Translations under genes and position numbers: made by a program | Source: a virus | Length of the DNA stretch: 27,210 bases | IMG/VR virus record: IMGVR_UViG_3300032285_000144 | Span: 1-27,210 of that record | Reading direction: 5' to 3' (one strand) | In this document: positions 3,819 through 25,914 of the stretch, piece by piece | Numbering within the stretch: position 1 is the stretch's first letter | How the letters are laid out: each line of letters begins with the position of its first letter | Notes under the pieces: generated by a model | The model's database searches: none | The model's input: the letters and a program-made list of their open reading frames with translations, nothing else | What the model was told of the DNA's origin: nothing

Positions 3819-3824
3819 AAATAA

Positions 3825-5804: not shown

Positions 5805-5809
5805 TTATA

Positions 5810-5817
5810 GTTAAATA
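5810..5817 (+). promoter_or_regulatory. Weak late promoter-like box (GTTAAATA)
   Basis: The box matches TATAAATA at 6 of 8 positions and lies in the 31-base gap between fibres 2 and 3. Exactly 18 bases separate it from the ATG, the same spacing as the better box before fibre 5 at 10441. A weak call resting mainly on the matching spacing. Confidence 0.25.
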
Positions 5818-5835
5818 TGAAGACGGATTAAAAAC

Positions 5836-7668: not shown

Positions 7669-7674
7669 AAATTA

Positions 7675-7684
7675 ACGGAGCGTA
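7675..7684 (+). repeat. 10-base junction repeat, copy 2 (ACGGAGCGTA)
   Basis: Second copy of the sequence at 3808-3817. Here it lies between the fibre 3 stop and the fibre 4 ATG, and the GGAG core lies 7 bases before that ATG. Confidence 0.6.
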
Positions 7685-7687
7685 GAA

Positions 7688-9478
7688 ATGGCAGGATATT
7701 CAATATACAGATACAACGGGTCCTTATTAGCAGAGGTTCCTGACGGTACCATTGAAACCTCCAGTACTGATTTAAAGCTGATTGGTAAAAACTATCCAGG
7801 GTATGGCACAGCTGAAAACGAAAATTTTGTACATCTTTTAGAAAACTTTCGCAGCGAAACACAACCTCGTAGACCGATCATAGGTCAACTGTGGTTTGAT
7901 GAAAGCACAAACAAAATAAAATTCCGTGATCACTATTCATCGTGGCGCACACTGTCTATTACAGACACTGGTATTACAAAACCGACAGGCCTAACCACAA
8001 TAGATAAAGGTAATCTATGGTTTGATGAAGACCGCAAGCAGATTAACGTATGGGACGGAACTGATTATGTATTGATCGGTCCTGAGAATGCTCCTACGTT
8101 TGCTGAAACAAGACTTCGCTCTGTTACTATTCGAGATGATGGCAACACAGCACATCCAATTATCAAAGTAGTAGAAAACGGATCAGTAATAGCTGTATGG
8201 TCTCCTGATGATTTCGCAGTAGGTTCTATTGATACTACTCTAGGTGCTGGATTTACATATATCCACAAAGGTCTAACTCTAATTGATACACCATCGGATG
8301 GAGTAACAACCAGTAGTTATAGATTCTGGGGCACAGCAACTAACGCAGTTAAATTAGGCGGTCACCCATTGTCAGACTTTGTGCTGAGAGGATCAAGCGG
8401 ATCTACATTTGACGACTATGGATTTACTGTAGGTAACGATTCCGATATACGTATTTTTGTAGAAGATACAAATAAGCCAGTGATATCAAACCAACTAGGT
8501 ACTACATTACGACTACGAGTCACTGTAGGAACAACTAAAAATGATATCGGTATACTATCTGCTTCTGGAATGTCACCAGGCCTAGATAATTCCTATGACA
8601 TTGGCGACGTAACTCATAGATATAGAAACATCTATGGAGCAAATATATTTGGCGGAGTAGTAGGAACGCTTAAAGGAAATATGTATGCTTCAGATTCTAG
8701 TCTACTCATCGACGGTACGACCAAGAGTTTTAGTGGAACCACAATAGGAACACACCAAGGTAACTTGGCAGCAACTGACGGCGCACCTATTTTTGATGGA
8801 TTGACTAAAGCATTAACTGTAAATTCTGTAACATCTACTACTATGAACGCTAACAGTTTAACTTTAGTAGATAAACTGATTGGTAATGTCAAAGGTAGCA
8901 TATACGCCAACGATGAAACTATAGCATATAACTCAGGTACTAAAACATTTACAGGAAATCTAGTAGGTAATGCCGATACAGCTTCTAGATTAGTTTCTGG
9001 CAAATACATCAATGGTGTGTTCTTTGACGGGTCGACTAACATTGATGTTAATGATCCGCTAGCTGTAGCAAAATCAGGCAGTGTTATGAGTGGATTTTTA
9101 ACATTATCAGGAGATCCTACAGCACCAGGCCATGCTGCTACTAAGCTGTATGTTGATAACAAATTAAAAACACAGCCGATATTCTTTAGTATTGACACTA
9201 AAGGACTTGATACAACTGGCACTGGAACAGGATCAGTGGTTGCGTTGATGAACGAACTAGCTCCGGTAGGCAACTTTTTGCCAGGAACATTAGCGCATAT
9301 TACTAGCACTATACAAAATATTCAATCAACAGTGGCTCTTTCAACAGGCCGTTGGATCTCTATTACCTATGTAAGCAATGTCACAGTCACAACAACGCAA
9401 CTTAATCCAACTAGAAACAATCTGTTAATTTATAGAGTTAATTCTTCAGGCACGAGTTGGGAATATGTCTCAGGTTAA
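7688..9478 (+). CDS. Tail fibre-like protein 4, 'IAPV'-type C-terminus (596 aa)
   Basis: Shared N-terminal module: 'GKNYPGYGTAENENFVHLLE', 'GQLWFDESTNKIKF', 'GNLWFDEDRKQINVWDG', 'LIGP'. The similarity to fibre 5 continues beyond the module, through an 'HPIIKVVENG' segment and 'YRFWGTATNAVKLGGHPLSDF' (in fibre 5 'FRFWGTASNAEKLGG'), so fibres 4 and 5 are the closest pair over their first 230 residues. The shaft has 'GNMYASDSSLLIDG' and 'GSIYANDETIAYNSG' repeats. The tip (about 496-596) matches fibre 2 in pattern: 'SIDTKGLDTTG', 'MNELAPVGNFLPGTLAHIT', then a beta-rich end. Its last 14 bases overlap the next gene. Probably a virion fibre; the tip family is unknown to me. Confidence 0.82.
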   Translation: MAGYSIYRYNGSLLAEVPDGTIETSSTDLKLIGKNYPGYGTAENENFVHLLENFRSETQPRRPIIGQLWFDESTNKIKFRDHYSSWRTLSITDTGITKPTGLTTIDKGNLWFDEDRKQINVWDGTDYVLIGPENAPTFAETRLRSVTIRDDGNTAHPIIKVVENGSVIAVWSPDDFAVGSIDTTLGAGFTYIHKGLTLIDTPSDGVTTSSYRFWGTATNAVKLGGHPLSDFVLRGSSGSTFDDYGFTVGNDSDIRIFVEDTNKPVISNQLGTTLRLRVTVGTTKNDIGILSASGMSPGLDNSYDIGDVTHRYRNIYGANIFGGVVGTLKGNMYASDSSLLIDGTTKSFSGTTIGTHQGNLAATDGAPIFDGLTKALTVNSVTSTTMNANSLTLVDKLIGNVKGSIYANDETIAYNSGTKTFTGNLVGNADTASRLVSGKYINGVFFDGSTNIDVNDPLAVAKSGSVMSGFLTLSGDPTAPGHAATKLYVDNKLKTQPIFFSIDTKGLDTTGTGTGSVVALMNELAPVGNFLPGTLAHITSTIQNIQSTVALSTGRWISITYVSNVTVTTTQLNPTRNNLLIYRVNSSGTSWEYVSG

Positions 9479-9959
9479 TCTAGTGAAAAACTATCTATCA
9501 AACTATAACGAAGTTATAGAGCTAGCTGAAAAACATAGAGACAAGTTCTCGGTTAGAGCACCTAATGAGAAACACAATTTTGTTTCGCATTATGGAGACA
9601 GCAAGCTCAAGAGCTTGTTTTCGTTTGATATGGATCAGGAATTACAAGATGCTATTTTTAAAACCATACCTGATGATCGTAGATTTGTAACTAGTTATAC
9701 GATTAACAGATATGATCCGGGTGATTATCTTTTAAGGCACCGAGATCATGTTGGCGGATATTGGAAATTTAAACTGATATTCTTGCGCAGTGATCGTCCG
9801 CACTTTAAATGGTATGATGATCAAGGCGATGGTTTTGTAGTTGAAGAAGAACAGGGTGCGTTACTTGAAATGCCTATACATATAGAGCACGAAGTAACAG
9901 AGATAGAACAAGACGAACAGCCCAAATATAGCTTAGTGCTAGCATGGGGAAGGATTTAA
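9465..9959 (+). CDS. 2OG-Fe(II) oxygenase (prolyl-hydroxylase-like), 164 aa
   Basis: The protein has the layout of a small 2-oxoglutarate/Fe(II) dioxygenase. 'NRYDPGDYLLRHRDHVGG' carries the iron-binding HxD (H92, D94). A strand-rich core follows ('FKLIFLRSDRP', 'FVVEEEQGALLEMP'), then the distal histidine in 'IHIEHEVTEI' (H142) and an end 'KYSLVLAWG', where Lys rather than the usual Arg would meet the 2OG carboxylate. Such enzymes hydroxylate proteins, nucleic acids or small molecules; the substrate cannot be read from sequence. The gene overlaps fibre 4 by 14 bases and has only a weak ribosome site, so it is probably translationally coupled to the fibre. That placement suggests a virion or surface substrate, but this is inference. 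Confidence 0.75.
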   Translation: MSQVNLVKNYLSNYNEVIELAEKHRDKFSVRAPNEKHNFVSHYGDSKLKSLFSFDMDQELQDAIFKTIPDDRRFVTSYTINRYDPGDYLLRHRDHVGGYWKFKLIFLRSDRPHFKWYDDQGDGFVVEEEQGALLEMPIHIEHEVTEIEQDEQPKYSLVLAWGRI

Positions 9960-9960
9960 T

Positions 9961-10431
9961 ATGGCAAAAGTAACTAGAAATTTATTATTCATTAAAGATT
10001 CAGGTGTGTTAATTGGGGAGATTCCAGCAGATGCTGATAACTCCAGTTTCAATCTAGACAAGTTTGTAGTCAAATCGGTAGAAATAGATCACGAAGAAGG
10101 TGAGTACTGGTACGGTGATTATACTACTGGTGAGATTCGTGCTAGAACAGACAAGCCATTGATTACAGAATCTTTTGTCAAGTATAACACCAACGCAGAG
10201 ATCTTAACCGCATATCCTTTACATACGCAGATCAACATATTGATTGATATGTTAGACAAAAATGCCACAGTAAAGACTGACGAATTTATAGCATTCAAGG
10301 ACTATCTTGATGCTGCTAGAGCAAATCACGCAGAACAAGTAAACGCATATGCTTCAAATCCAGCGGCTTATACATGGATTTCAGCAGAAGAAGAAAAAGA
10401 TATCATAGAAAAGAAGCAGAAATTCGCTTAA
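9961..10431 (+). CDS. Unknown protein between fibres 4 and 5 (156 aa)
   Basis: I do not recognise a named family. The first half looks beta-rich ('LLFIKDSGVLIGEIP', 'EYWYGDYTTGEIRA'). The second half is helical and charged ('YPLHTQINILIDMLD', 'FKDYLDAARANHAEQ', 'ISAEEEKDIIEKKQKF'). A 'YPLHxQxNxL' helix followed by a Lys/Glu-rich tail is seen in some phage proteins encoded next to tail fibres, including assembly helpers, so a fibre-assembly or fibre-partner role is possible but unproven. The start is well supported by GGAAGGAT 6 bases upstream, and the ATG follows the oxygenase stop after one base. Likely one transcript with fibre 4 and the oxygenase. Confidence 0.65.
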   Translation: MAKVTRNLLFIKDSGVLIGEIPADADNSSFNLDKFVVKSVEIDHEEGEYWYGDYTTGEIRARTDKPLITESFVKYNTNAEILTAYPLHTQINILIDMLDKNATVKTDEFIAFKDYLDAARANHAEQVNAYASNPAAYTWISAEEEKDIIEKKQKFA

Positions 10432-10440
10432 AAGTCTATG

Positions 10441-10448
10441 GATAAATA
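10441..10448 (+). promoter_or_regulatory. T4-type late promoter-like box (GATAAATA)
   Basis: The box matches TATAAATA at 7 of 8 positions. It lies in the 35-base gap before fibre 5, with 18 bases to the ATG. The position would place a late transcript start just upstream of the GGAACG ribosome-site region. This is the best-placed late promoter candidate in the + strand block. Confidence 0.45.
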
Positions 10449-10466
10449 TAACAAACTGGAACGAAA

Positions 10467-12266
10467 ATGACGTATAGAGTAGACAGATATAACGGAACTT
10501 TCTTAACTAATGTAGCCGACGGCTCCATTGATACATCTACGGACATTAAATTCGTAGGTAAAAATTATACTGGCTACGGACAAGTCCAGAACGAGAATTT
10601 TTTATATCTTTTAGAAAATTTTGCTAATACAGTAGCACCATCGAAGCCTGTTAGCGGACAAATTTGGTACGATTCTAGTATCAAAAAACTGAAATTTTAC
10701 GATGGTACAAAATTCAAAGCAGCTAGTGGAGCAGAAATTGCTTCTAGTCCTCCGGCAGGACTAGCACAGGGTGATCTTTGGTTTGATACTAACACTAACC
10801 AATTGTCAGCATGGAACGGTTCTAGCTTTGTATTGATTGGACCGCAAAGCGCACCAGGTTTTGGTACATCGCAGATTGTTACACAGGTTGTTAAAGACAT
10901 TAACAACACATCACACGTTATTTTGAAATCTGTTGTTGCTGGCGTAACGACAGCTATATTCAGCAATGACCCCGATTTTACTCTTTCTTCTACAAACAGT
11001 ATCGCAGGTTTTTCTGAAACAGGGCGTCAAGTTAAGAAAGGTATTACACTAAATTCTGTTAGTGATACTGGCGTAAGCGATTCAAGCGGATTTAGATTCT
11101 GGGGTACAGCTAGTAACGCTGAAAAACTCGGCGGCCACCCTATTGAAGACTTTATTAGAAGTACTGGCGGATCAGCACAGCAATTTACAGGATCTGATCC
11201 TGTATCATTCTCGGGTGCTGGTTTAACTGTTGGTCTAGGTGATCTTACTGTAAGAAAAGATCTACGTATCTATATCAATACAGCTAACGAACCAACTATA
11301 GAAAACCAAAATAACGGTATTATCAAATTCCGTATCAGCAACGCTGCGTCTACGACTGACAGAGATGACATGATGATATTGAGCAGAGCTCAATATGATC
11401 CTGCCGATGCTACAACAACAAAAGCCATATTCCCTAATCAAACTGAAGTGATAAACCTTGGTGCTGCTACTAGACATTGGAAGTCTATATGGGCAAAAAA
11501 CATCTATGGAAATTTAACTGGAAATGTAACTGGTGATACTACTGGTATACATACTGGCGGAATCAAAGCAGATAATGGCGGAGTGGCGTATAACTCAGCA
11601 TCACGAACATTTACAGCAGACTTGTTTATTGGATCATTCCAAGGGCCTTTATCAGGTCAAGCAAGTTCGGCGGTTACAGCAAGTAAGTTAGCCACATATG
11701 ACCCAGTTGACAATTACAATCCTGGTGTTATTACTATTCCAGTTAGATCTGCTGCTGGTACTATCAAAGCAGTATTCTTTGATGGTCAGTCAAACGACAC
11801 TAGATCAGTGAACGGACGTCAAGCATCTGCTTCAACAGTTCCAGACACACTGGTAATACGAACAGTGGGCGGTGATATAAATGGCAGATTCTTTAATGGA
11901 ACGGCCACATCTGCTAGATATGCTGATTTGGCTGAGATATATAAGACTGATAAAGAATATGAAGTAGGCACAGTAGTTTCTGTGGGCGGCGAGTTCGAAG
12001 TAACAGCGTGTTCTAAAAAAGAAAGAGCTATAGGTGCTATATCGGCTAATCCTGCGTACCTAATGAATAAAGACGCAGAAGGTCAAGCAGTAGCATTAAA
12101 AGGTAGAGTTCCTGTGAAAGTGATAGGTATAGTAACAAAAGGTGACGGATTAGTAGCAGCCGATGACGGATATGCTAAGTCAGGTAACGGACCTTTGCGT
12201 TTTGCTATAGCATTAGAAAACCACAATTCGGAAGCCACTGGCATTATCGAAGCAATTATATTATAA
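10467..12266 (+). CDS. Tail fibre-like protein 5, 'ADLAE'-type C-terminus (599 aa)
   Basis: Fifth paralogue, with the full N-terminal module ('GKNYTGYGQVQNENFLYLLE', 'GQIWYDSSIKKLKFYDG', 'GDLWFDTNTNQLSAWNG', 'LIGP') and the 'FRFWGTASNAEKLGGHPIED' segment shared with fibre 4. A short 'GNLTGNVTGDTTG' linker precedes the tip. The last 115 residues (about 486-599) are of another type: 'YADLAEIYKTDKEYEVGTVV', 'RAIGAISANPAYLMN' and 'ALKGRVPVKVIGIVTKGD'. I recognise this as a common C-terminal module of marine phage fibres, reminiscent of C-terminal domains that can cleave themselves or act as assembly chaperones (Peptidase_G2-like). Whether this one cleaves cannot be judged from sequence. Probable host-recognition fibre with its own promoter-like box. 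Confidence 0.83.
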   Translation: MTYRVDRYNGTFLTNVADGSIDTSTDIKFVGKNYTGYGQVQNENFLYLLENFANTVAPSKPVSGQIWYDSSIKKLKFYDGTKFKAASGAEIASSPPAGLAQGDLWFDTNTNQLSAWNGSSFVLIGPQSAPGFGTSQIVTQVVKDINNTSHVILKSVVAGVTTAIFSNDPDFTLSSTNSIAGFSETGRQVKKGITLNSVSDTGVSDSSGFRFWGTASNAEKLGGHPIEDFIRSTGGSAQQFTGSDPVSFSGAGLTVGLGDLTVRKDLRIYINTANEPTIENQNNGIIKFRISNAASTTDRDDMMILSRAQYDPADATTTKAIFPNQTEVINLGAATRHWKSIWAKNIYGNLTGNVTGDTTGIHTGGIKADNGGVAYNSASRTFTADLFIGSFQGPLSGQASSAVTASKLATYDPVDNYNPGVITIPVRSAAGTIKAVFFDGQSNDTRSVNGRQASASTVPDTLVIRTVGGDINGRFFNGTATSARYADLAEIYKTDKEYEVGTVVSVGGEFEVTACSKKERAIGAISANPAYLMNKDAEGQAVALKGRVPVKVIGIVTKGDGLVAADDGYAKSGNGPLRFAIALENHNSEATGIIEAIIL

Positions 12267-12276
12267 GGAATAGAAC

Positions 12277-13491
12277 ATGGCAGCACAAGGCGGAGATCCG
12301 GTCAGATACAGCGACTATAACGCATTATATACCACAATTAACTCAATAGTCGGGCCATTACAACAAACTGCCCCGGGAGTTTATGTTAAAGGTACAGGAT
12401 ATGGAGTACCTAACTCAAGTCTCTCATCTTTACAATATCCTTTTGTTAGGACAATATCTAACATCTCCAATACAAATCCAGCGCAAGTTACGACTTCTCT
12501 TCCGCACAATTTAGTGTCAGGCGAAAAGATTTATATCGACGGCATCACAAATCCGACTTGGTCTACAACAGCTATTAGCGGAAACTATTTTGTAGTTGAT
12601 CAAGTTTTAAGTACAACAGTTTTTAGCTTGCTGAACGTTGATACTAGAGTCAGTCAAGGATATCCAGCATGGGCGGGCGCAGGTAACGTTTCGCAATATG
12701 TTATTTCAGCTAATCAATTTAACAATCTAAGAGCAGATTTGGCTCTAGCATATACTCACGTATATGGCGCAGCCCCTAGTGCTACTACATTGCCGATTCC
12801 TACTAGGAATTCATTGATCCAGTATTCTGTTTACCTGCCATACTATAACACAGTAACGGCAGTTAATTCTAACAAACTAGTATGTCAAGAAACAACAGTT
12901 TATGGTTGGCCAACAACGCCACAAAGGAATGGATCTTCTGCTCCATTTGGTAACGGTAGTATGTTTGTTGACTTTACACTTGAGTGGCCAACTGCCTATG
13001 ACTTTGTACAGTATTTTAACACAGGATCTTATTTTGGGTTCGCTTCAGTAGTTGATCAGACTGGTAACGGCCCATCAAACTCGGCAGCTGAAAATGCGGA
13101 TTGGTTAGATTTAAACAACAAGATGTTTCCTATGAACTATGGTGCTTATAACAAAGCAACTATGGGATACACTGATTCTTCTAAGTGGTCACCTCAAGGA
13201 GCATACGATGCTAGTTTATCAGGATTGACACAGGTACAACAGGTACAATCAACAACAGCCAACTATACTAGCAACACTATCACAATGAGACACAGGGCAT
13301 TGAGTGATAGAAAGTTACAGATACAGTTTGAATACTATAATGGACATAGCAACGGATTCTCGCCATACGTGACATCTAGATTTACATTTACGCTGACGTT
13401 CTATTATTCATACGCTAGCATTAACTTAAATCAAACGCCATTTACTTCTCCGGGAATCCAAGTAAACTTTACTAAATCGTTCTCTGCTTAA
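12277..13491 (+). CDS. Putative virion structural protein (404 aa)
   Basis: Two similar helical segments, 'YSDYNALYTTINSIVGPL' near residue 11 and 'ANQFNNLRADLALAYTHVYG' near 145, flank a beta-rich domain that includes 'SNTNPAQVTTSLPHNLVSGE'. The remainder is Tyr/Asn/Ser/Thr-rich with many aromatic residues and ends in beta-type 'RFTFTLTFYYSYASINLNQT'. There is no membrane helix and no catalytic motif. It does not carry the fibre N-terminal module. Location right after the fibres and composition suggest a virion surface protein or fibre-associated adhesin. SD AAGGAA lies 6 bases before the ATG. It is the last gene before a strong hairpin, so it probably ends the fibre transcription unit. Confidence 0.7.
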   Translation: MAAQGGDPVRYSDYNALYTTINSIVGPLQQTAPGVYVKGTGYGVPNSSLSSLQYPFVRTISNISNTNPAQVTTSLPHNLVSGEKIYIDGITNPTWSTTAISGNYFVVDQVLSTTVFSLLNVDTRVSQGYPAWAGAGNVSQYVISANQFNNLRADLALAYTHVYGAAPSATTLPIPTRNSLIQYSVYLPYYNTVTAVNSNKLVCQETTVYGWPTTPQRNGSSAPFGNGSMFVDFTLEWPTAYDFVQYFNTGSYFGFASVVDQTGNGPSNSAAENADWLDLNNKMFPMNYGAYNKATMGYTDSSKWSPQGAYDASLSGLTQVQQVQSTTANYTSNTITMRHRALSDRKLQIQFEYYNGHSNGFSPYVTSRFTFTLTFYYSYASINLNQTPFTSPGIQVNFTKSFSA

Positions 13492-13512: not shown

Positions 13513-13545
13513 AAACCCTTAGCATAAGTATCATGCTAGGGGTTT
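13513..13545 (+). terminator. 13-bp hairpin at end of fibre block; possible terminator or ribosome-site hairpin
   Basis: AAACCCTTAGCAT pairs with ATGCTAGGGGTTT: 12 Watson-Crick pairs and one G-U, with a 7-base loop AAGTATC. It lies 21 bases after the stop of the 404-aa gene. The trailing sequence is CTTATG rather than a clean T-run, so it is an imperfect intrinsic terminator. Its 3' arm holds AGGGG, the only ribosome-site candidate for the ATG at 13549, so the hairpin could also mask that start. A 6/8 late-promoter-like CATAAGTA spans the loop (13523-13530). Confidence 0.6.
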
Positions 13546-13548
13546 CTT

Positions 13549-13908
13549 ATGAATGATAATCTAAAACAAGCCATAGACTTTTCCAACAAAATGCTATCTA
13601 TAAAGGTACAAAAGCAGTATCTTAAAGAGAAGTTTTCTGCTGATACCACATACGGCTATGGCGGCGGTATATTTAAAATAGACACACATCTGTTGTTGTT
13701 TATTGAATCTTTGGTAAATCAAAAAAGAATCGAAGATGTAATATTGTTAGATTCTAATCAAAACCCTATTGTAGTAAACGATCTAGTGGAATTCCAAAAA
13801 GAGATAGTTAACAAATACTGGTCTGCGGTAGGATTTTATCAGGCAGGTTACGAAGATCTCAAAAAAAGAAAAACAGATTCTGTAAGATTGGCTTTACCTA
13901 AGATATGA
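13549..13908 (+). CDS. Small conserved-looking phage protein of unknown function (119 aa)
   Basis: Unrecognised by name. The first half is helical and basic ('LKQAIDFSNKMLSIKVQKQY'), followed by 'GYGGGIFKIDTHLLLFIESL', a hydrophobic strand 'VILLDSNQNPIVVND' and a C-terminal helix with Tyr and Lys. This resembles short proteins found among late genes of marine T4-like phages, possibly virion-related, but I cannot assign a role. It is the first gene of the overlapping cassette; its stop overlaps the next ATG (ATGA). The ribosome site AGGGG, 7 bases upstream, is buried in the 3' arm of the 13513-13545 hairpin, so translation may be controlled by RNA folding. An internal ATG at codon 15 is a less likely start. 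Confidence 0.65.
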   Translation: MNDNLKQAIDFSNKMLSIKVQKQYLKEKFSADTTYGYGGGIFKIDTHLLLFIESLVNQKRIEDVILLDSNQNPIVVNDLVEFQKEIVNKYWSAVGFYQAGYEDLKKRKTDSVRLALPKI

Positions 13909-14717
13909 AAAAAGGTGCTTTGATATTCGCGCACAATAATGATGATATTGATTATGTGCGATTAGCAACTATATCAGCGAAATTGATATTGAAAAATATG
14001 TCAGTTCCTGTTTCGCTGATCACTGATCAGCCTAGCTTAGATTCAACTGCATCAGATTGTTCTATTTTTGACCAAGTGATACTTGTTGATGCTCCTCCCA
14101 AAAATCATTACAGACATTTAGAAAACAAGACTCAACTATTTTTAAATTCTACAAGACATGATGCCTGGAAGCTAACACCTTATGATAGGACTTTGTTAAT
14201 AGATTCTGACGTATTGATAATGAACGATCAATATGGAAATTATTGGGATGTTGACGAAGATTTCCTAATATGCGAATCTATGATTAACTTATCATCGATA
14301 GAACTAGCAGCAGATGAACAACGTGTTTCGGATAAATCGTTGAGGTTGAGTTGGGCTACTGCTGTTATGTTTACCAAGAACAGTTACACTAAAATGATTT
14401 TTGACACCGTGACTTACGTTCAAAATGAATATCGATACATCTCAGATGTCTATGAATTTCCTATGAGACATTTTAGAAACGATATCGCATTTTCTGTGTC
14501 TAATCATATAGTCAATGGTTTCCAACAATCTGATAATTTTTTGCCTCCTATGCTTTGGGCATCATCTAAAGACAGCTTGTTAGAAGTTGATGGCTCGCTG
14601 TATTTTTCTGTTGATAATGACGGAACTAAAGGCATAGTTAAAGTATCTGGAGTTAATCTTCATATTATGAACAAGTCAGATATTTTAAAATTTGAAACTG
14701 AGATACTCGCACTATGA
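13905..14717 (+). CDS. Glycosyltransferase-like protein A (GT-A fold, DxD), 270 aa
   Basis: It starts with an alternating beta-alpha pattern ('KKGALIFAHNND', 'VRLATISAKLIL', 'VPVSLITDQ') typical of a nucleotide-sugar-binding Rossmann half. At residues 97-103 'LLIDSDVLI' carries the metal-binding DSD (100-102) expected of GT-A enzymes. 'ATAVMFTKNS' near 151 fits the second half of the fold. The family would transfer a sugar from a nucleotide donor; neither donor nor acceptor can be inferred. It overlaps both neighbours by ATGA junctions and is related in layout to the next gene ('YTVCLDADMLF'). It might modify virion proteins, phage DNA or host glycans. No membrane segment, so cytoplasmic. The GT class is well supported by fold features, the precise family is not. 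Confidence 0.65.
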   Translation: MKKGALIFAHNNDDIDYVRLATISAKLILKNMSVPVSLITDQPSLDSTASDCSIFDQVILVDAPPKNHYRHLENKTQLFLNSTRHDAWKLTPYDRTLLIDSDVLIMNDQYGNYWDVDEDFLICESMINLSSIELAADEQRVSDKSLRLSWATAVMFTKNSYTKMIFDTVTYVQNEYRYISDVYEFPMRHFRNDIAFSVSNHIVNGFQQSDNFLPPMLWASSKDSLLEVDGSLYFSVDNDGTKGIVKVSGVNLHIMNKSDILKFETEILAL

Positions 14718-15571
14718 GAGATTTTGGCTATCTGATAGTTATTTCTAAAGACAAGAACAATCAGAATCTGTATCATCAGATGGCTTATCTGTTGGCGTTA
14801 TCTATTAAACGTACACAAAAATCTGGATACGATAAAGTAGCTGTAGTAACTGATGATGAAGAAACACTAACTTTATTAAGAGCAACTCCTGTTATTGATC
14901 GAGTGATTTTTTGGAATGAAAAACAGCATTGGGATGGTAGATCTTGGATGGACAAATTAAGTCCTTGGAGATACACTGTATGCCTAGACGCTGATATGCT
15001 GTTCACTAGAGATTACAGCCATTGGATTGACTATTTCAAAAGCAACTGCGAATTATACATAGCACCAAAGGCTTATACATTTAGGGGCGAAGTTGTAGAA
15101 TCTGATTTCTACAGGAAAACGTTTACAGCCAACGATCTACCTAATCTATATTCTGCTTATACATGGTTTGATAAAGAATCATTAATGGTAGAAAATTTCT
15201 TTAATCTAGGAAGATATATAATAGAGAACCCTACAGAATTCAAAAATCTTTACCTTGATAAAGATGTACCTAAGGTCCTTGGAACTGATGAAGCATTTGC
15301 TCTATCAGCAAAAATTTTAGATATAGAAGATGAAATATCTTATGAACTAGAATTTCCGAGATTTGTACATATGAAGCCTGCTATACAAGGCTTTACTAGA
15401 CAGGTAAAGAATACTGGTTCTGAAGTAGGCTATCATTTTGATAAAAAGAATAATTTTAAGATAGGAACATTTGCGCAGACTGACATAGTACATTACGCAC
15501 AGAAAGATCTTAATATGTTTGAAATGATGCTTAACTACCAAAACTTAATGATGGAGAATTTTAAAAAATGA
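14714..15571 (+). CDS. Glycosyltransferase-like protein B (GT-A fold, DxD), 285 aa
   Basis: Beta-alpha start 'FGYLIVISKDKNNQNLY', 'MAYLLALSIKRTQ', 'YDKVAVVTDDEET', then 'SPWRYTVCLDADMLFTRDYS' with DAD at 92-94. Later 'YSAYTWFDKES' and 'FFNLGRYI' near 160-175 and 'LGTDEAFALSAKIL' near 210 look like the acceptor half of a GT-A enzyme. The 'TDEAFALS' motif resembles the 'D-E/Q' region of GT-A enzymes that act after donor binding. Both ends overlap neighbours by ATGA, so the protein is probably made in step with protein A and they may work in sequence. Cytoplasmic, no signal peptide. Substrates are unknown. Confidence 0.65.
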   Translation: MRDFGYLIVISKDKNNQNLYHQMAYLLALSIKRTQKSGYDKVAVVTDDEETLTLLRATPVIDRVIFWNEKQHWDGRSWMDKLSPWRYTVCLDADMLFTRDYSHWIDYFKSNCELYIAPKAYTFRGEVVESDFYRKTFTANDLPNLYSAYTWFDKESLMVENFFNLGRYIIENPTEFKNLYLDKDVPKVLGTDEAFALSAKILDIEDEISYELEFPRFVHMKPAIQGFTRQVKNTGSEVGYHFDKKNNFKIGTFAQTDIVHYAQKDLNMFEMMLNYQNLMMENFKK

Positions 15572-16149
15572 CATATATTATCAACGCAAGAAAATCTACA
15601 GGAGACATTATTATGTGTGCTAGAAACACACTAGAAACTATAAATGATCCTACAGTAGAACAATTCACAGTACCTTCAGAATATGATTCTATATTCGATG
15701 ATATTATGAAAGGTATCAAGATTATACATAGATACAAAATCAATACAGAAAGCAAAGATTTAAAAATCTATTGTGTAGATGATATGGTATCAGAAGATGA
15801 CGAATCTTATAATAAATTTACTCTTATTCCGTTCTCACCAAAGTCTAACGATGCTATTAGCGATTTAGTAATCACAGTGTTTACTAGAGATCATAGCCCA
15901 AGAATGGTAGTAACGTATAACGGACCTCCAGTAACAGATCCATCTAAAAACAGTTTTGACATCTATCTAACTGACAAGAACGATATCAATACACACTATC
16001 AAACATTTAATTGTAACTTTGATCAGTTTGATGAAAACTCTTCTATGGAATTTTCTATCACTGACATTGATTCTACAAAGTTATTCCAGAACGATTTCAG
16101 CTTCTTTTACAGAAGAATTTTCAACACAGCAGTATACGTGATTAAATGA
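15568..16149 (+). CDS. Unknown protein within glycosyltransferase cassette (193 aa)
   Basis: No family recognised. The N-terminus 'MTYIINARKSTGDIIMCARN' and a helical, acidic middle lead into a beta-rich half ('DLVITVFTRDHSPRMVVTYN', 'SFDIYLTDKNDIN', 'SMEFSITDIDSTKLF') and a C-terminal 'FNTAVYVIK'. The two halves could be an alpha-helical cap on a beta-sandwich, but that is a guess from composition. Both ends overlap neighbouring genes by ATGA, so it is a firm member of the cassette and lies exactly between the two glycosyltransferase pairs. It might be an acceptor, scaffold or partner for those enzymes. No catalytic signature or membrane helix is visible. Confidence 0.65.
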   Translation: MTYIINARKSTGDIIMCARNTLETINDPTVEQFTVPSEYDSIFDDIMKGIKIIHRYKINTESKDLKIYCVDDMVSEDDESYNKFTLIPFSPKSNDAISDLVITVFTRDHSPRMVVTYNGPPVTDPSKNSFDIYLTDKNDINTHYQTFNCNFDQFDENSSMEFSITDIDSTKLFQNDFSFFYRRIFNTAVYVIK

Positions 16150-17063
16150 AAATAGCAGACCAAGACATTATCTTTATATCATATGACGAACCAAACGCAG
16201 AGATCAACTGGGCCGATCTCTCAAATAAAGCACCGTGGGCTCAACGAGTACATGGTGTAAAAGGTTCTGATAACGCACATAAAGCTGCGGCAGCATTAGC
16301 ATCGACTGAATGGGTGATCACCGTTGACGGTGATAATCAAATTGATCCTGAATTTTTAGAAATTGAAATTACTGAAATGCCTGGGATTGAAGTATACAGT
16401 TGGTGCGGAAGAAATGTGATTAACAATCTAACGTATGGTAATGGTGGTGTTAAGGTCTGGAAGAAATCTTTTATAGAAAATATGAAAACGCACGAAGCAG
16501 CTGATTCTGATTCGTCTCAAGTTGATTTTTGTTGGGAAACAGGTTACATGAATTTTCCTGCTGTATTCAGCGAAACAATTATCAATGCGACTCCGTTCCA
16601 AGCATGGAGAGCTGGTTTTCGTGAAGGTGTAAAGATGCTAACACTTAAAGGTGTTAAAGTAGATAAAGAAAATTTAAAGTCGGATATCTATTGGCATAAT
16701 ATACATAGACTGCGTATTTGGAGTTCAGTAGGTAGTCATGTTAAGAATGGTATCTATGCTATACTAGGAGCAAGACAGGGTAGTTACATGACATACTGTA
16801 CAGATTGGAATTATGTCGATGTTAGAGATTTTGAAAAATTGAAAGAAATCTATAATAATACCGCCATCTACTTTGAAGATAATGAAGCAGCATGTATTGA
16901 AGAGATTAAAAAACTAGGGGACATAATAAAAGCAGAACTAGGATTTAATTGGGCTTACTTTGACAAAGATCAAAGCCAATACATTATAGATCTATATGCT
17001 GAGTCTATAGCACTTGGCCAAACGTATTACAACAAGAGCCCGATATGGAAAAGTTCTTTCTAG
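16146..17063 (+). CDS. Glycosyltransferase-like protein C (GT2-like, DGD motif), 305 aa
   Basis: 'DIIFISYDEPNAEINWADL' opens the chain, followed by 'RVHGVKGSDNAHKAAA', a helix, and 'WVITVDGDNQIDPEF' with DGD at 61-63, the layout of a GT2-type nucleotide-sugar site. The conserved 'NVINNLTYGNGGVKVW' lies near residue 90-105 and 'INATPFQAWRAGFREGVKML' near 146-165. I recognise this family from marine myoviruses, where it is usually annotated as a glycosyltransferase; activity has to be shown. It begins with an ATGA overlap and its end overlaps the next gene by 19 bases. The next gene is a shortened paralogue carrying the same two signature blocks. Confidence 0.68.
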   Translation: MKIADQDIIFISYDEPNAEINWADLSNKAPWAQRVHGVKGSDNAHKAAAALASTEWVITVDGDNQIDPEFLEIEITEMPGIEVYSWCGRNVINNLTYGNGGVKVWKKSFIENMKTHEAADSDSSQVDFCWETGYMNFPAVFSETIINATPFQAWRAGFREGVKMLTLKGVKVDKENLKSDIYWHNIHRLRIWSSVGSHVKNGIYAILGARQGSYMTYCTDWNYVDVRDFEKLKEIYNNTAIYFEDNEAACIEEIKKLGDIIKAELGFNWAYFDKDQSQYIIDLYAESIALGQTYYNKSPIWKSSF

Positions 17064-17737
17064 CATTTGATGATCCATTTATAGATCAAAATTATGACTT
17101 AGCACACTCTAAGATCAAAGATCTGCGAAAAGTAGTAACACATAGAACAATATCTGGATCTCACAAATATTGTGCTGAACTATCTCTAACAGATCAGTTC
17201 ATGGTTTTAGATGCGGATGCTGTTCTATTAGATGATTTTAATCTCTTCGATGTATATCAACGTGTCGAGGATCCTAATTACATTTACATTTTTAGAGCCA
17301 GAAATCCTGTAAATGATCTAGAATACGGACACGGAGGAATAAAAATATTCCAGCGTAAATTTTTCAATGATGTAGAAGCTGTAGATTTTTCTACATCATT
17401 TAAAGGAAGAATTAAAACAGTAGACATGGTACTTAACGTACATGCCTTTAATACAACTCCTTTACATTCATTTCGCACAGCATTTAGAGAATGTGTTAAA
17501 TTGTCATCAGGCACGATTCCTAACAGAAATGTCGCACAAGATGAATATAGATTAAGCGTATGGTGTGAAAAATTCAACGATGTGCCGTGGGTAGAGTTTG
17601 CTAAAGAAGGTGCGTTATTAGGCAGAGAATATGGTCATAAAAATAAAAGTGACGAGTCTCAATTACGTGTTATTAATGATTTTAAATGGTTGATGAAACA
17701 ATATGAACAAGTGGCAAAGAGATCGCCTAGACTATAA
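17045..17737 (+). CDS. Glycosyltransferase-like protein D, paralogue of C (230 aa)
   Basis: It repeats the signature blocks of protein C in the same order: 'FMVLDADAVLLDDF' (DAD at 56-58), 'NPVNDLEYGHGGIKIF' and 'FNTTPLHSFRTAFRECVKLS'. Protein C has 'NVINNLTYGNGGVKVW' and 'INATPFQAWRAGFREGVKML', so the pair arose from a common ancestor, most simply by tandem duplication. D is 75 residues shorter and has a basic C-terminus. The start codon sits 19 bases inside gene C, and its own end overlaps the radical SAM gene by 35 bases. Two related enzymes of different length may transfer different sugars or act as a catalytic and helper pair. Confidence 0.66.
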   Translation: MEKFFLAFDDPFIDQNYDLAHSKIKDLRKVVTHRTISGSHKYCAELSLTDQFMVLDADAVLLDDFNLFDVYQRVEDPNYIYIFRARNPVNDLEYGHGGIKIFQRKFFNDVEAVDFSTSFKGRIKTVDMVLNVHAFNTTPLHSFRTAFRECVKLSSGTIPNRNVAQDEYRLSVWCEKFNDVPWVEFAKEGALLGREYGHKNKSDESQLRVINDFKWLMKQYEQVAKRSPRL

Positions 17738-19130
17738 AAAGAAATTAGATACCATTAGCAGTAGTTTTTGTACGGCTAAATGGAGTCAGGTGACTATCCA
17801 TTTAGGAGTTGGGCACACGCATAGCTGTCATCATCCTAGGACACACGTTATTCCTATACAAGAGATTAAAGAAGATCCTAGCGCATTACATAACACTTCC
17901 TATAAAAAGTCTCTAAGAGAAGAAATGCTACAAGGAGTTCGTCCTAAGGAATGTGATTATTGTTGGAATGTAGAAGACAGTGGCGAAGCTCTAAGTGACA
18001 GGGTTTTAAAAAGTTACGAACCTTGGTCACAAAAAATGCTAGACGAGTCTTTACGAGCAGGATCAAAAGATTCTGTTAATCCCAAGTACTTGGAAATTTC
18101 TTTCAGTAATGTTTGTAACTTTAAATGTTCTTATTGTAGTCCAGATGTTAGCAGCAAATGGATGGAAGAAATAAAAGAGTTTGGACCTTATCCTACTTCT
18201 CTTAATTTTAATAATCTAGACTGGGTAAAGGCTCAGGGCAAGATGCCTGTTCCAGAAAGAGAATATAATCCTTATGTAGAAGCATTTTGGAAATGGTGGC
18301 CTGATCTTTATCCTATCCTACATACATTCCGTATTACTGGAGGAGAGCCGTTACTTAGCAAACACACATTCAGAGTGCTAGAACACATATTAGAAAATCC
18401 TAATCCTAATTTAGAGTTAAACATTAATTCTAATTTCTGCGTACCTGATGAACTATTTGATAGATTTTTAGACAAGCTAAAATTAATACAAGAAGAAGGT
18501 GCTGTTAAAAGTATATTGATATACACCAGTTGTGAAGCATACGGTGAACAATCAGAATATATACGTTTTGGTATGAACTACAACAAGTGGTTAACAAACT
18601 GTGAAAGATATCTGTCAACAGTTCCTGATGCTAAGTTAGGTATCATGAGCACATACAATGCTCTATCAGTTACTACCTATCAGCAGTTTTTAGAAGACGT
18701 TCTATATCTTAACAAGAAATATGGAAAACCTAAATGGTATCAAAAAATTGTTAATAGAGTATTGGGTATAGATTTTGGTTCTCATCCTGTTAATCTAGAT
18801 ATACCTTATCTAAATAACCCTCCGCATCAAACTGTAGGAATACTCACACCTGATTTCATCTCAATGATTAAATCTCAGATAGCTTTTATGAATGCTAATC
18901 AGGTTACTAAAGGTGATAATTCTATTGGATTTTATAAATCAGAAATACAAAAATTAGAAAGATTGCTTGGGGTATTTGAACACAAGATGTTTATCGATGA
19001 TGCTAAGAAAATACAGAATCGCAAAGACTTTGCGATATTTGTCGATGAACATGATAAGAGACGGGGAACGAACTTTTTAAGCACGTTCCCCGAATTGACA
19101 GAATTTTATAACTTGTGTAAGACTTACTGA
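17703..19130 (+). CDS. N-twitch-type radical SAM protein (475 aa)
   Basis: 'EISFSNVCNFKCSYC' places the radical SAM cluster at C138, C142 and C145 (CX3CX2C), and 'FRITGGEPLLSKH' supplies the SAM-binding GGEP at 213-216, with a TIM-barrel-like beta-alpha order after it. The first 100 residues hold four more cysteines, C23, C42, C84 and C87 (the last two as 'CDYCW'), spaced like a ligand set for an auxiliary Fe-S cluster. This matches the twitch domain-containing radical SAM family with an N-terminal twitch region, common in marine T4-like phages. The family probably makes a radical-based modification of a protein or peptide; the substrate is unknown. It is the last gene of the + strand block and its TGA overlaps the thyX stop on the other strand. 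Confidence 0.8.
   Translation: MNKWQRDRLDYKKKLDTISSSFCTAKWSQVTIHLGVGHTHSCHHPRTHVIPIQEIKEDPSALHNTSYKKSLREEMLQGVRPKECDYCWNVEDSGEALSDRVLKSYEPWSQKMLDESLRAGSKDSVNPKYLEISFSNVCNFKCSYCSPDVSSKWMEEIKEFGPYPTSLNFNNLDWVKAQGKMPVPEREYNPYVEAFWKWWPDLYPILHTFRITGGEPLLSKHTFRVLEHILENPNPNLELNINSNFCVPDELFDRFLDKLKLIQEEGAVKSILIYTSCEAYGEQSEYIRFGMNYNKWLTNCERYLSTVPDAKLGIMSTYNALSVTTYQQFLEDVLYLNKKYGKPKWYQKIVNRVLGIDFGSHPVNLDIPYLNNPPHQTVGILTPDFISMIKSQIAFMNANQVTKGDNSIGFYKSEIQKLERLLGVFEHKMFIDDAKKIQNRKDFAIFVDEHDKRRGTNFLSTFPELTEFYNLCKTY
19062..19092. terminator. 9-bp perfect GC-rich inverted repeat in 3' end of radical SAM gene; possible terminator for opposite strand
   Basis: CGGGGAACG and CGTTCCCCG are exact reverse complements separated by 13 bases (AACTTTTTAAGCA, which can form three more pairs). 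For transcripts on the - strand the hairpin lies 32 bases after the thyX stop and is followed by TCTCTTATC, a poor U-tract. For the + strand it lies inside the radical SAM coding sequence, 36 bases before its stop. The placement at a convergent gene end favours a terminator for the - strand. Confidence 0.5.
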
Positions 19131-19795
19131 TCGCTTATGAACTCGTTGGTCATAGGAAATATCTCTGCTATTACTTTAGCACATTCAATAGCAACTTCTT
19201 GATGTTCCTTCTGTGTTCCGTTACCAGAACGAAGTTGGATAAAGTGAATCCAACTACGCAGCGTACCATTCATATATAAACGGCTTACTGTATTACCTTC
19301 TGGTAAGATAGAACGAGCTTGTTCTTTAGCGATACCTTTTTCAACAGCTTCAGCATAAATCCTCTTAACGTTTTCAATAACGAATTTCTGTTGAGCATCC
19401 CACCATGCTATTAATTCGGTATCAGAAGTATCTATGCTGTTTTGTCTATTCTTGGTGTCTTGTAGTCGTGCGTCTCGGCATACAAACGAGAGATCCTCAG
19501 TAGGGTCAGCATATCGTTGGCTGAACTCTTGGAAGCTGAAGCTTCTGTGTCTAAGGATTTGTCTTGCGATATCTCTTGTTGTGGTAATTTCGAGGCAGGC
19601 TGAGACCATTTCGAGTGGCGACCAGTGTTGGTGTTTGACCAAGTATCGGATGAGTTTTTCTGATGTCTCGGTGTTAAACTGGTTGGCTGGATTGGACACA
19701 CGGGCGCAATACGCAATGAGTTCCTGCGCATCTTCGATGCCCAAGCCCTCAAATTCGCTAGTGGGTGCGCTGTAGGATAAAAGTTTAACATTCAT
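19124..19795 (-). CDS. thyX: Flavin-dependent thymidylate synthase ThyX (223 aa)
   Basis: ThyX makes dTMP from dUMP using FAD, NADPH and methylene-tetrahydrofolate. The signature RHRX7SXR is intact at residues 82-94 (RHR 82-84, S92, R94), within 'RQILRHRSFSFQEFSQRY'. 'YLVKHQHWSPLEMV' upstream and 'SRLYMNGTLRSWIHFIQLR' downstream with 'QKEHQEVA' are other conserved ThyX blocks. Length is normal for the family. In phages it supplies dTMP for replication. The start ATG overlaps the upstream stop by ATGA, so the gene is coupled to its neighbour, and it is the last of the - strand run. Its stop overlaps the radical SAM stop on the + strand. No key residue seems to be missing. Confidence 0.97.
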   Translation of the reverse strand: MNVKLLSYSAPTSEFEGLGIEDAQELIAYCARVSNPANQFNTETSEKLIRYLVKHQHWSPLEMVSACLEITTTRDIARQILRHRSFSFQEFSQRYADPTEDLSFVCRDARLQDTKNRQNSIDTSDTELIAWWDAQQKFVIENVKRIYAEAVEKGIAKEQARSILPEGNTVSRLYMNGTLRSWIHFIQLRSGNGTQKEHQEVAIECAKVIAEIFPMTNEFISDQ

Positions 19796-24107: not shown

Positions 24108-24280
24108 ATCTTACCCCATTTAATTTTAAGCCAAATGCGCTCGTGTACATAATGTACTGCTGTTAAAATAACATGAATAATAACAGCATCACTTAACCCA
24201 GTCCACAGAGCTGTAATAAGCAACGCAATGATACGATATGTTACGGCACGAACTACAGTTCTTTTATGGATTTCGGTCAT
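24104..24280 (-). CDS. DUF2061 membrane protein (58 aa)
   Basis: 'HKRTVVRAVTYRIIALLITA' and 'AVIIHVILTAVHYVHERIWL' give two hydrophobic helices joined by 'LWTGLSD', with the family's typical 'K-R...TYR' start and 'YVHERIW' end. DUF2061 proteins are small inner-membrane proteins of unknown role, seen in bacteria and many phages. I start at the ATG at 24280, which overlaps the queE stop as TAATG and has GGGG 8 bases upstream; the frame also opens at a GTG at 24292. Being small and membrane-embedded, it could affect the host envelope, but no mechanism is known to me. Confidence 0.85.
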   Translation of the reverse strand: MTEIHKRTVVRAVTYRIIALLITALWTGLSDAVIIHVILTAVHYVHERIWLKIKWGKI

Positions 24281-25131
24281 TAAGTACCCCACTCGTTTTT
24301 AAACAGAGGTACTTGTAGTCTGTCACTATATCTGAAGCCATGCTTCATAGCCAACAAGGCGACATTCTTATTGTTCATTGCGTAGACACTTTCTACACCG
24401 CCTACTGGCATTAGATAAATGTGTCCTGTAAATCCTGCTGAACGATATGCGGCAATAGCACATTCTGCGTCAGCAAAGTCTTGTTCTGTTGCTATAACAA
24501 ACTTTAGATAGGCTGTGCCGTATTCTTCATATTGGCACACAATCTCTGGTTTGATAGCATCTTCCCACTTTTCACCTGAGCACGGAAGTTTAGCACTTAC
24601 ACTAAATGTGATCTCACGCCAGAAGTCTTTGTCATGATGATGTGCCCAAGTGTGTAAGTAACTGGCAAATTCTTTGCTTAGTTCTTGAGTACCATTTGTT
24701 TCAAATGTAATCTCTTTTAGATTAGCCATCTTAGGATGATCGAGTAAATCTGGATAAGCACGTTGCCAACCTAACAAAGGCTCACCACCGGTAATTACGA
24801 GATGTTCGTCCCGCCATTCTTTGTGAGGTAACGAATCCACAATAGCGTCGGCAATCGCAGCAGTATCCATAAGGGGAGATAGATGCTTAAAGCGAGGATC
24901 CCAAGAAGCGTAACTATCACAACCTGTGGATACCAAAGGAAGCGATTTGTACTCGGTGTACTGATCAGCATTAATATTCTCTGCTTCAACACTTAATTCT
25001 CCTCTAGGCATACCAAAACCGGCACACTTAAAATTACAACCAAATGTGCGCAAGAACACAGAAGGCACACCCATATAGCGGCCTTCACCTTGTATACTGT
25101 AAAACAGTTCAGCTATCTTTATTTTACTCAT
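24280..25131 (-). CDS. queE: 7-carboxy-7-deazaguanine synthase QueE (radical SAM), 283 aa
   Basis: QueE turns 6-carboxytetrahydropterin into 7-carboxy-7-deazaguanine, the first committed 7-deazaguanine step. 'ELFYSIQGEG' at about 9-18 and 'GVPSVFLRTFGCNF' are hallmark segments, and 'VITGGEPLLGWQ' (GGEP 115-118) is the SAM site. The iron-sulphur cysteines are unusual: C32 and C36 are followed not by CX2C but by C71, in 'STGCDSYASW' (CX3CX34C). I recall this arrangement in marine phage QueE. The start is the ATG at 25131 because the family motif begins 8 residues later; the frame is open to 25167. A consensus sigma70 promoter ends 6 bases before this ATG. No other deazaguanine gene lies in the window. 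Confidence 0.9.
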   Translation of the reverse strand: MSKIKIAELFYSIQGEGRYMGVPSVFLRTFGCNFKCAGFGMPRGELSVEAENINADQYTEYKSLPLVSTGCDSYASWDPRFKHLSPLMDTAAIADAIVDSLPHKEWRDEHLVITGGEPLLGWQRAYPDLLDHPKMANLKEITFETNGTQELSKEFASYLHTWAHHHDKDFWREITFSVSAKLPCSGEKWEDAIKPEIVCQYEEYGTAYLKFVIATEQDFADAECAIAAYRSAGFTGHIYLMPVGGVESVYAMNNKNVALLAMKHGFRYSDRLQVPLFKNEWGT

Positions 25132-25137
25132 TGTATT

Positions 25138-25167
25138 ATTATACATCCTTTTCTTCGGTTGTGTCAA
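25138..25167 (-). promoter_or_regulatory. Consensus sigma70 promoter (TTGACA-18-TATAAT) for queE and downstream genes
   Basis: TTGACA (25162-25167) and TATAAT (25138-25143) are both exact and separated by 18 bases. The TAA stop of the AbrB-like gene falls inside the -10 box, so the promoter is embedded in that gene's 3' end. With the usual distance of about 7 bases, transcription would begin at or next to the A of the queE ATG, giving a leaderless or near-leaderless queE message. Promoter function is inferred from sequence. Confidence 0.75.
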
Positions 25168-25354
25168 CCTTTTTTGATAGGCTGAAAGAGCCGTTGCCTT
25201 CGTCTTTCCAAACTAAGACATCGCCCGGTTTAAATCCTGCTTTTTCTAAAACTTCTTCAGGCAACGGCAATACCAAATCGCCTGTTTCTGGATCTTCTTC
25301 TACATGGACGATGAGGCGACCGACTGTAGGATCTGTTCTCTGATCATCTGACAT
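25139..25354 (-). CDS. AbrB/MazE-like (SpoVT-AbrB fold) small protein (71 aa)
   Basis: The middle has a swapped-hairpin AbrB look: 'GDLVLPLPEEVLEKAGFKPG' and 'DVLVWKDEGNGSFSLSKKV', with the typical 'LP.EVLEKAG.KPGD.L' order. AbrB-type proteins bind DNA as dimers and act as regulators or as antitoxins. Both flanks are acidic and low in complexity. No toxin gene is recognisable beside it, so antitoxin is not favoured. SD AAGGAA lies about 10 bases before the ATG. The start is inside the 3' end of the SGNH gene (55-base overlap), and its stop lies within the -10 box of the queE promoter, so it could influence that promoter; this is a guess. Confidence 0.68.
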   Translation of the reverse strand: MSDDQRTDPTVGRLIVHVEEDPETGDLVLPLPEEVLEKAGFKPGDVLVWKDEGNGSFSLSKKVDTTEEKDV

Positions 25355-25914
25355 AACTTTTTATTTCCTTCTTCTGAATAGTGATTTACTTCACCTTTAT
25401 TTTCTAACCAAAAATCTGATAGATCAACTTTGTTTTTCTCGATAGAAAAGATAGCAGCGTCTTTAAAATTATCTATGGCTATGTACGATGAGAAAGCCAT
25501 CAGTCTTGCTATTTCGCTGCGTATTAGATAGTAGATACCTTTGCTCTGACTTTCGTCATAATGATATTGAAAGAAATCTTTGGCTGCTTTAAGGCTTGGA
25601 TTATTCTTGTCGTTGTGTGCTTCTAGGTCTGTATAAATGAGATCACAGTTAATATGTAATCCTTCTTTGTGTACAGGATGCTCTCTTGTATGTATACGAC
25701 TAAAACTGGTATGACATACGATAACACAGTCAAACCAAGTTACATCTACACTGTGTACCTGACGTAAGATTTTATATTCACCTACACCAGCTTGTGCTAG
25801 ATTAGTTACATCAAAATATTCTTCTAGTAATTCTGCCCAGCCTGGATATTTGCCAGGCCATTTGGCAGCAAAACTGTCTCCTGCGATTAGAACTTTTAAA
25901 CGTTCTTCAACCAT
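25300..25914 (-). CDS. SGNH-like hydrolase, shorter copy (204 aa)
   Basis: 'VLIAGDSFAAKWPGKYPGWA' carries the block I Ser (S14) and 'NLAQAGVGEYKI' the block II Gly. Near the C-terminus 'EVNHYSEEGNKK' gives a His (H178) with Glu rather than the usual Asp three residues before it (E175). The Asn of block III is not obvious: 'VCHTSFSRIHTREH' has Ser where the neighbouring paralogue has WNR. Activity may be altered or lost. SGNH enzymes cleave esters, often acetyl groups on sugars. The ATG lies 19 bases inside the longer SGNH gene. No signal peptide, so if active it works in the cytoplasm or after lysis. Confidence 0.7.
   Translation of the reverse strand: MVEERLKVLIAGDSFAAKWPGKYPGWAELLEEYFDVTNLAQAGVGEYKILRQVHSVDVTWFDCVIVCHTSFSRIHTREHPVHKEGLHINCDLIYTDLEAHNDKNNPSLKAAKDFFQYHYDESQSKGIYYLIRSEIARLMAFSSYIAIDNFKDAAIFSIEKNKVDLSDFWLENKGEVNHYSEEGNKKLCQMIREQILQSVASSSM

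Follow-up and report, generated by a model that had tools for sequence, protein, structure and literature searches.

Among the closest described counterparts of the locus analysed here is the host-recognition island of pelagimyophages, which, in the published passages on it, combines fibres, mostly GT8 glycosyltransferases (GTs) and radical S-adenosylmethionine (SAM) cassettes and is read as modifying the host O-chain (PMC7029224). Individual components recur elsewhere: the T4-like ocean genome TARA_ERS488813_N000010 is credited with 12 radical SAM genes in the text that counts them (PMC5332604), and the jumbo 'moraphages' share four core GT orthogroups whose role is given as not known where they are listed (PMC12619734). 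Here we describe a gene cassette at 13549-19130 of a viral record from IMG/VR (IMGVR_UViG_3300032285_000144; 27,210 bases, analysed over its full length and hereafter called the window), in which genes for four GTs, two further proteins (u1 and the slot-4 protein) and an N-twitch radical SAM enzyme follow the gene of a fibre-like virion protein. As far as searched, the cassette is real, conserved and undescribed as a unit, a variation on known phage glycosylation genetics with a putative target. The open-licence literature holds no description of the ordered operon that we could find, in keeping with an initial annotation of the window, which had regarded the combination as undescribed.

The fibre array of the window spans 1620-12266 and closes with a long tail fibre-type protein (10467..12266, plus strand), for which tblastn finds matches among proteins of the fibre region in jumbo and Campylobacter phages that have been cultured. 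Then comes the fibre-like gene (12277..13491, plus strand), whose product belongs to a GYG...FFN-GG family, is assigned from synteny, a family alignment and a distant homologue in phage Paride, and is the proposed substrate. The seven open reading frames (ORFs) of the cassette itself, all on the plus strand with consecutive overlaps of 4, 4, 4, 4, 19 and 35 bases, encode u1 (13549..13908), a small soluble protein of 119 residues recognised from the ORF list and synteny and proposed to act as an adaptor or chaperone; GT A (13905..14717), a predicted GT8/GT6-like enzyme of the GT-A fold with a DxD motif at 100-102 and a late His253, assigned by alignment and structure prediction; GT B (14714..15571), its DxD-bearing paralogue according to profiles and alignment; the slot-4 protein (15568..16149), 193 residues long and placed by profile–profile comparison and synteny as a divergent member of its family; GT C (16146..17063), a putative GT2-like GT-A enzyme with an invariant DxD at 61-63, judged from a sub-threshold Pfam match, alignment and structure prediction; GT D (17045..17737), a shorter GT C paralogue by sequence comparison; and the N-twitch radical SAM enzyme (17703..19130; NF033640), the facultative last gene, identified by profile match, alignment and synteny. 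In these coordinates and overlaps, in the adjoining fibre array and in the DSD, DAD, DGD and DAD motifs of GT A, B, C and D, respectively, the ORF list agrees with the initial annotation. The unit is nevertheless larger than was first drawn, as the fibre-like gene belongs to it along with the seven, and the gene at 15568, then listed as an unknown, turns out to be a member of the family that fills slot 4 in nearly all loci.

Gene order carries the case for a conserved unit. A scan with a GT C profile, blind to the radical SAM gene, returned 589 relatives, and 74 non-redundant viral loci were analysed, the best 80 matches being retained per scan. With almost no exceptions, these loci keep the order fibre-like protein, u1, GT A, GT B, slot 4, GT C, GT D: the slot-4 protein precedes GT C in 71 of 74 and a GT C paralogue lies downstream of it in 71 of 73, GT B and GT A hold their expected positions in 72/73 and 70/72, u1 does so in 57 of 62, and the fibre-like gene sits directly upstream of u1 in 51 of the 57 testable loci. 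When u1 or the fibre-like gene served as the starting point, scans restricted to one clade recovered u1, GT A, GT B, slot 4 and GT C in this order in all contigs of sufficient extent. Such an order, kept at 25-65% protein identity across dozens of independent contigs, is far beyond chance. It is also seen in phage-type contigs binned in metagenome-assembled genomes (MAGs; loci L129, L131, L135, L140, L142 and L146); these bins are labelled Neomarinimicrobiota, Betaproteobacteria, Rickettsiales, Pelagibacter and Verrucomicrobia, which may be hints of hosts or binning errors.

The cassette occurs in hundreds of contigs of uncultured T4-like phages from aquatic metagenomes, and six of eight large cassette-bearing records contain a T4-type major capsid gene (gp23). 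Among 50,697 records of deposited phages, neither a DNA search with the cassette nor tblastn with the radical SAM enzyme of the window gave a match, GT C, u1 and GT A of the relatives likewise gave none, and only distant radical SAM genes were present, in two Vibrio phages. Since it is found in hundreds of contigs and its GT, u1 and radical SAM genes lack matches in deposited phages, the cassette appears to be a common yet unstudied part of aquatic phage biology. Identity with the 'moraphages' (PMC12619734) is unsupported, no LysRS being present in the eight cassette records.

The radical SAM enzyme is a partner of the cassette, dispensable and not a core part. The window protein matches NF033640 over its full length (E = 2.7e-102; 342.8 bits, cut-off 170; residues 19-469, profile 1-398), which bears out the N-twitch identity given to it initially, and its cysteines C23, C42, C84 and C87, together with C138, C142 and C145 of the CxxxCxxC motif, are invariant in 20 homologues; from these intact motifs, Fe-S clusters and SAM cleavage are predicted. 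The initial annotation had tied this gene to the four GTs and the fibres. GTs and fibres are conserved together, and a same-strand radical SAM gene comes next in 56 of 67 testable loci, so that GT and radical SAM genes do co-occur; the radical SAM gene is, however, a frequent yet facultative 3' partner, as nine loci have none within three genes, the intact cassettes L221, L222 and L228 lack it, and it is found elsewhere without GTs. In other loci it occurs in one to four tandem copies, and its overlapping start is repeated in the homologous locus L004 (GT D 9343-10023, radical SAM 10001-11404). In L085, L089 and L091, which are otherwise syntenic with the window, the enzyme comes from a deep separate branch (41% identity); this in-place replacement by a distant homologue suggests that the position itself is selected for some radical SAM enzyme in that clade.

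A scan with the radical SAM enzyme only found 532 encoding stretches, of which 45 non-redundant loci were kept, with a GT C gene in 30 and none in 15. A second phage context without the GT cassette comprises L012, L013, L022, L036, L043, L047, L050 and L059, and in the L013 group the order runs DNA ligase, Bax inhibitor-like protein, a 277-residue protein, radical SAM, proteins of 405 and 484 residues, QueD-like protein, UvdE and DUF6492. On chromosomes, N-twitch enzymes are concentrated in Bdellovibrionota-type MAGs, often with several copies per contig (L098-L151). Two Bacteriovoracia contigs place a GT C homologue beside or near the radical SAM gene in a glycan-type cluster with two GT2 genes and PMT-like, amine oxidase, DegT and epimerase genes. 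Judged from gene content, these clusters are the best evidence for a functional tie between GT C and radical SAM outside phages, and point to glycans. Also of note, four large records (G001, G005, G006 and G008, those of L004, L091, L007 and L059) each hold 9-13 matches to N-twitch or related radical SAM enzymes, often as tandem arrays that lie well away from the GT cassette, and L058 (7558-11380) carries a fibre-like gene, a 188-residue ORF and a radical SAM gene with no GTs between, possibly a reduced cassette.

The four GTs fall into two families, handled separately because comparison of the GT A/B profile with the GT C/D profile detects no homology. Neither GT A nor GT B has a Pfam or NCBIfam GT match, and with no model above cut-off we call them GT8-like rather than GT8. 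The AlphaFold model of GT A (predicted local distance difference test score, pLDDT, 92.9; predicted template modelling score 0.91) finds GlyE (5gvw) as its best match in the PDB (E = 9e-7), followed by the blood-group enzymes GTA/GTB, UGGT, LARGE1, glycogenin and LgtC. These best matches are GT8/GT6 and related enzymes, at E of about 1e-6 and probability 1.00, in support of a GT8-like GT-A fold. In a 24-sequence alignment D102 is invariant, D100 is present in at least 90%, and a His occurs in the C-terminal stretch of the GT A rows; the DxD and this late His are thus predicted to bind metal. The profiles of GT A and GT B recover each other, although BLASTP of the pair is weak, and it follows that GT B would share the GT A fold as a paralogue.

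GT C is assigned to a GT2-like GT-A fold more weakly than GT A to its own. Its Glycos_transf_2 score is 19.7 bits (E = 9e-4) and that of GT D 13.5 bits, both below the gathering threshold of 23.3, and its profile has no match among PDB sequences; D61 and D63 of its DxD are invariant in the alignment. The GT C model (pLDDT 89.9) resembles the GT2-type enzymes WrtF, PcManGT, SunS and TarP (E from 1e-4 to 1e-3, template modelling score ~0.3), with the GT of phage Che8 among its weak fold matches. GT D matches GT C at E = 3e-17, from which it follows that the two probably share a fold as paralogues. Structure prediction of all four GTs with fibre tips had been suggested at the outset; a GT-A fold is predicted for A and C, with B and D placed as their paralogues.

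The slot-4 protein of the window, compared profile to profile with its family after exclusion of the window's clade, is matched in its C-terminal domain (probability 92.9%, E = 3.6e-7), and the family ranges from 114 to 446 residues. Some members carry an accessory domain whose sole other occurrence in our data is as an insert in GT B, and this common domain links slot 4 to GT B. We do not claim the accessory domain as CBM5/12, for which E is only 0.044, and a likeness of slot 4 to the neighbouring gene at 9961 or to u1 is unsupported by profile comparison.

Promoter motifs suggest a single operon from u1 onwards. We counted a TAAATA T4-late core within 60 base pairs (bp), or a sigma70 consensus, in distinct upstream regions of the relatives. 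The T4-late core precedes u1 in 53/90 regions, fibres in 52/86 and the fibre-like gene in 40/119, over a background of 2.2%, while the genes after u1 are near background. Because the motifs precede u1 and none lie inside, u1 to radical SAM appears to behave as one operon, of T4-late type in most clades and of sigma70 type in some; where the late motif precedes both u1 and the fibres, that is, in most clades, the operon would be made together with the virion. In the window, ATAAATA occurs three times (11.8 expected), each time 25-35 bp upstream of a start codon, and one copy, a T4-type late-promoter core by count and position, stands before the last long fibre (10442..10448, plus strand). Upstream of the window's u1 there is neither a T4-late nor a sigma70 motif, and the cassette of this clade is therefore probably driven by read-through from the late fibre promoter via the fibre-like gene. 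Just before the first cassette ATG lies a leader hairpin with an 11-bp stem (13514..13544, plus strand), supported by covariation: 7/11 pairs keep pairing through two-sided changes in 10 loci of the window's clade. It is possibly an attenuator, operator or translational switch; as for a plain terminator, a T-run is missing in the L085-type loci.

Our leading, if tentative, interpretation is that the block serves large T4-like phages of aquatic habitats as an operon devoted to glycosylating the virion, with radical tailoring as a facultative addition. The substrate, made in the cytoplasm, would be the fibre-like protein (12277-13491) and possibly the fibres next to it as well; there, two soluble GT8-like enzymes, GT A and GT B, and two soluble GT2-like ones, GT C and GT D, would sequentially build a short glycan on it, drawing on host nucleoside diphosphate sugars as donors and on Mn2+ at their DxD motifs. 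A cytoplasmic protein substrate would fit, since hydropathy places no transmembrane segment in any of the seven window proteins. We envision u1 and the slot-4 protein as chaperones or acceptor-presenting adaptors, and the N-twitch enzyme, where present, as tailoring a sugar or side chain via hydrogen abstraction. The decorated fibre might then change receptor binding or shield the virion. The more specific proposal that the four GTs assemble the fibre glycan and the radical SAM enzyme then rewires this glycan or its attachment site, a chemistry unseen in known phages, we regard as rather unlikely.

The main competitor, less probable in our judgement and yet a serious possibility, is conversion of the host surface. 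Here the GTs, with or without the radical SAM enzyme, would alter the lipopolysaccharide (LPS) core, an O-chain precursor or another envelope glycan, so as to block superinfection or keep progeny off debris, and the fibre gene would adjoin them through a common theme of host recognition. Several observations lean this way or otherwise weigh against a virion target. LPS core synthesis is a typical role of GT8 enzymes. The pelagimyophage GTs are given a host-surface role where their island is discussed (PMC7029224), and some relatives have sugar-nucleotide-type genes downstream (UDP-glucose/GDP-mannose dehydrogenase, NTP-transferase and cupin). GT C and radical SAM of the Bacteriovoracia contigs sit in surface-polysaccharide-type clusters, next to the GT2, PMT-like, DegT and epimerase genes. 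The sigma70 consensus precedes u1 in 16/90 regions as against 0/86 for fibres, 1/119 for the fibre-like gene and 0.4% in the background, and such an early-type promoter, which fibres and fibre-like genes lack, suits host take-over better. In addition, a distant homologue of the fibre-like protein ends the fibre array of Pseudomonas phage Paride without a cassette, so this type of protein does not need the cassette everywhere; the sample retained is biased to near relatives; and common ancestry of a T4-like module may account for part of the linkage. Against a host-surface role stand the strict linkage to one fibre-like gene, the late promoters of most clades and the absence of a sugar-nucleotide gene from the window's cassette. 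Family searches of the window proteins find no membrane GT, flippase, polymerase or lipid carrier step, and for serotype-converting gtr systems (GtrA, GtrB, GtrC-type membrane GT/flippase) the seven proteins have neither a family match nor a transmembrane segment. Because of the tie to a single virion-protein gene, the late promoters and the lack of membrane and lipid-carrier steps, a virion target is somewhat favoured over the host surface.

It is improbable that the neighbourhood is only an inherited structural module, in which fibre, GT and radical SAM genes serve separate purposes and stay together through slow T4-like rearrangement. The gp23-type capsid gene in six of the eight large records and the cassette-free fibre-like protein of Paride would suit this explanation, but the starts overlap, promoter motifs stand before u1 and not internally, the order is kept at 25-40% protein identity though the island is called hypervariable in related phages, the radical SAM gene was replaced in place in L085/L089/L091, and the accessory domain is common only to slot-4 proteins and GT B.

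We give still less credence to a pathway resembling that of ribosomally synthesised and post-translationally modified peptides, with the radical SAM enzyme as a peptide maturase acting on the tail of a virion protein and the GTs glycosylating that peptide. The idea draws on SunS, a glycocin S-glycosyltransferase, among the fold matches of GT C, and on the cultured Agrobacterium jumbo phage Atu_ph07 (L383, 10811-17549), where a fibre gene is followed by a cupin/JmjC-like protein, three radical SAM genes and gp170; the latter, encoded between two of them, ends in CHSSCHASCHNSRSRR and is a candidate radical-modified virion peptide. Such a Cys/His/Ser tail is found only in Atu_ph07 and in no ORF of the window or the other loci, however, the fibre-like protein of the window has a single Cys, and the radical SAM enzymes of Atu_ph07 show a weak match, if any, to the N-twitch profile. 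A defence-system reading was set aside, the matches being only weak superfamily ones.

Least probable of all, and unlikely on gene content, is hypermodification of phage DNA bases by the GTs and the radical SAM enzyme: there are known phage GTs that add sugars to modified pyrimidines, and ThyX and a QueE-like gene lie near the cassette in the window, but the usual hydroxymethyl acceptor is not evident because a gene of the thymidylate synthase/deoxycytidine monophosphate hydroxymethylase family (PF00303) is absent in 6/7 large records, which may be incomplete and in which TET/JBP oxidase routes were not searched, and the cassette is linked with a fibre gene and a late promoter rather than with genes for replication.

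The genes around the cassette include, on the minus strand beside it, ThyX thymidylate synthase (19124-19795; Thy1, E = 9.7e-44) and, farther on, a QueE-like radical SAM protein by sequence (24280-25167, minus strand). Neighbouring genes at 25300-26741 on the minus strand encode a pair of SGNH/GDSL-like proteins, one of which matches GDSL below threshold, and SGNH-like proteins lie downstream of the radical SAM gene in several relatives too. Upstream of the last long fibre, a 2-oxoglutarate-Fe(II) oxygenase-like gene (9465-9959; weak Pfam match) precedes the gene of a phrog_13209 protein (9961-10431); both keep their synteny, at 55-73% identity, only within the clade of the window. The oxygenase, which the initial annotation had singled out together with the cassette, thus belongs to the neighbourhood only within that clade.

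If the fibres are glycosylated, receptor binding would depend on a phage-attached sugar that sequence-based host prediction ignores. The radical SAM partner offers a genetic handle on the N-twitch family, which is also chromosomal in Bdellovibrionota, and, given the data on order and promoters, co-expression could test the question of the target directly.

Among known systems, streptococcal serine-rich-repeat adhesin clusters place dedicated GT8/GT2-type GTs after the adhesin gene. They resemble the cassette in that, among solved structures, GT A is matched best by GlyE (PDB 5gvw), and differ in being bacterial and in serving a secreted adhesin with Ser-rich repeats and an accessory Sec. We know of no radical SAM, u1 or slot-4 partner in mycobacteriophage virion glycosylation, nor of a radical SAM partner in the capsid glycosylation of chlorovirus PBCV-1. 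In mycobacteriophages, phage GTs act on virion proteins, as our model would have it, whereas the targets are capsid and tail tube, the GTs are others, and activity was shown there, as summarised in the citing text, whereas it is predicted here (Freeman et al. 2023, cited in PMC12619734). PBCV-1 likewise encodes its own GTs, which decorate a virion protein with an unusual glycan, although it is a eukaryotic algal virus and its GTs are unrelated, one having a GT-B fold (PMC7826918, PMC11571054). The ocean genome TARA_ERS488813_N000010 matches the relatives described here as a large marine T4-like phage with many radical SAM genes, which are only counted, with no GT cassette described, in the relevant passage (PMC5332604). 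The pelagimyophage island, finally, shares T4-like aquatic phages and the joining of fibres, GTs and radical SAM in one island, but it is described as hypervariable, and the published passages on it report no fixed operon, order, promoter or tie of GTs to a fibre-like gene (PMC7029224), the very features by which the cassette of the window is set apart.

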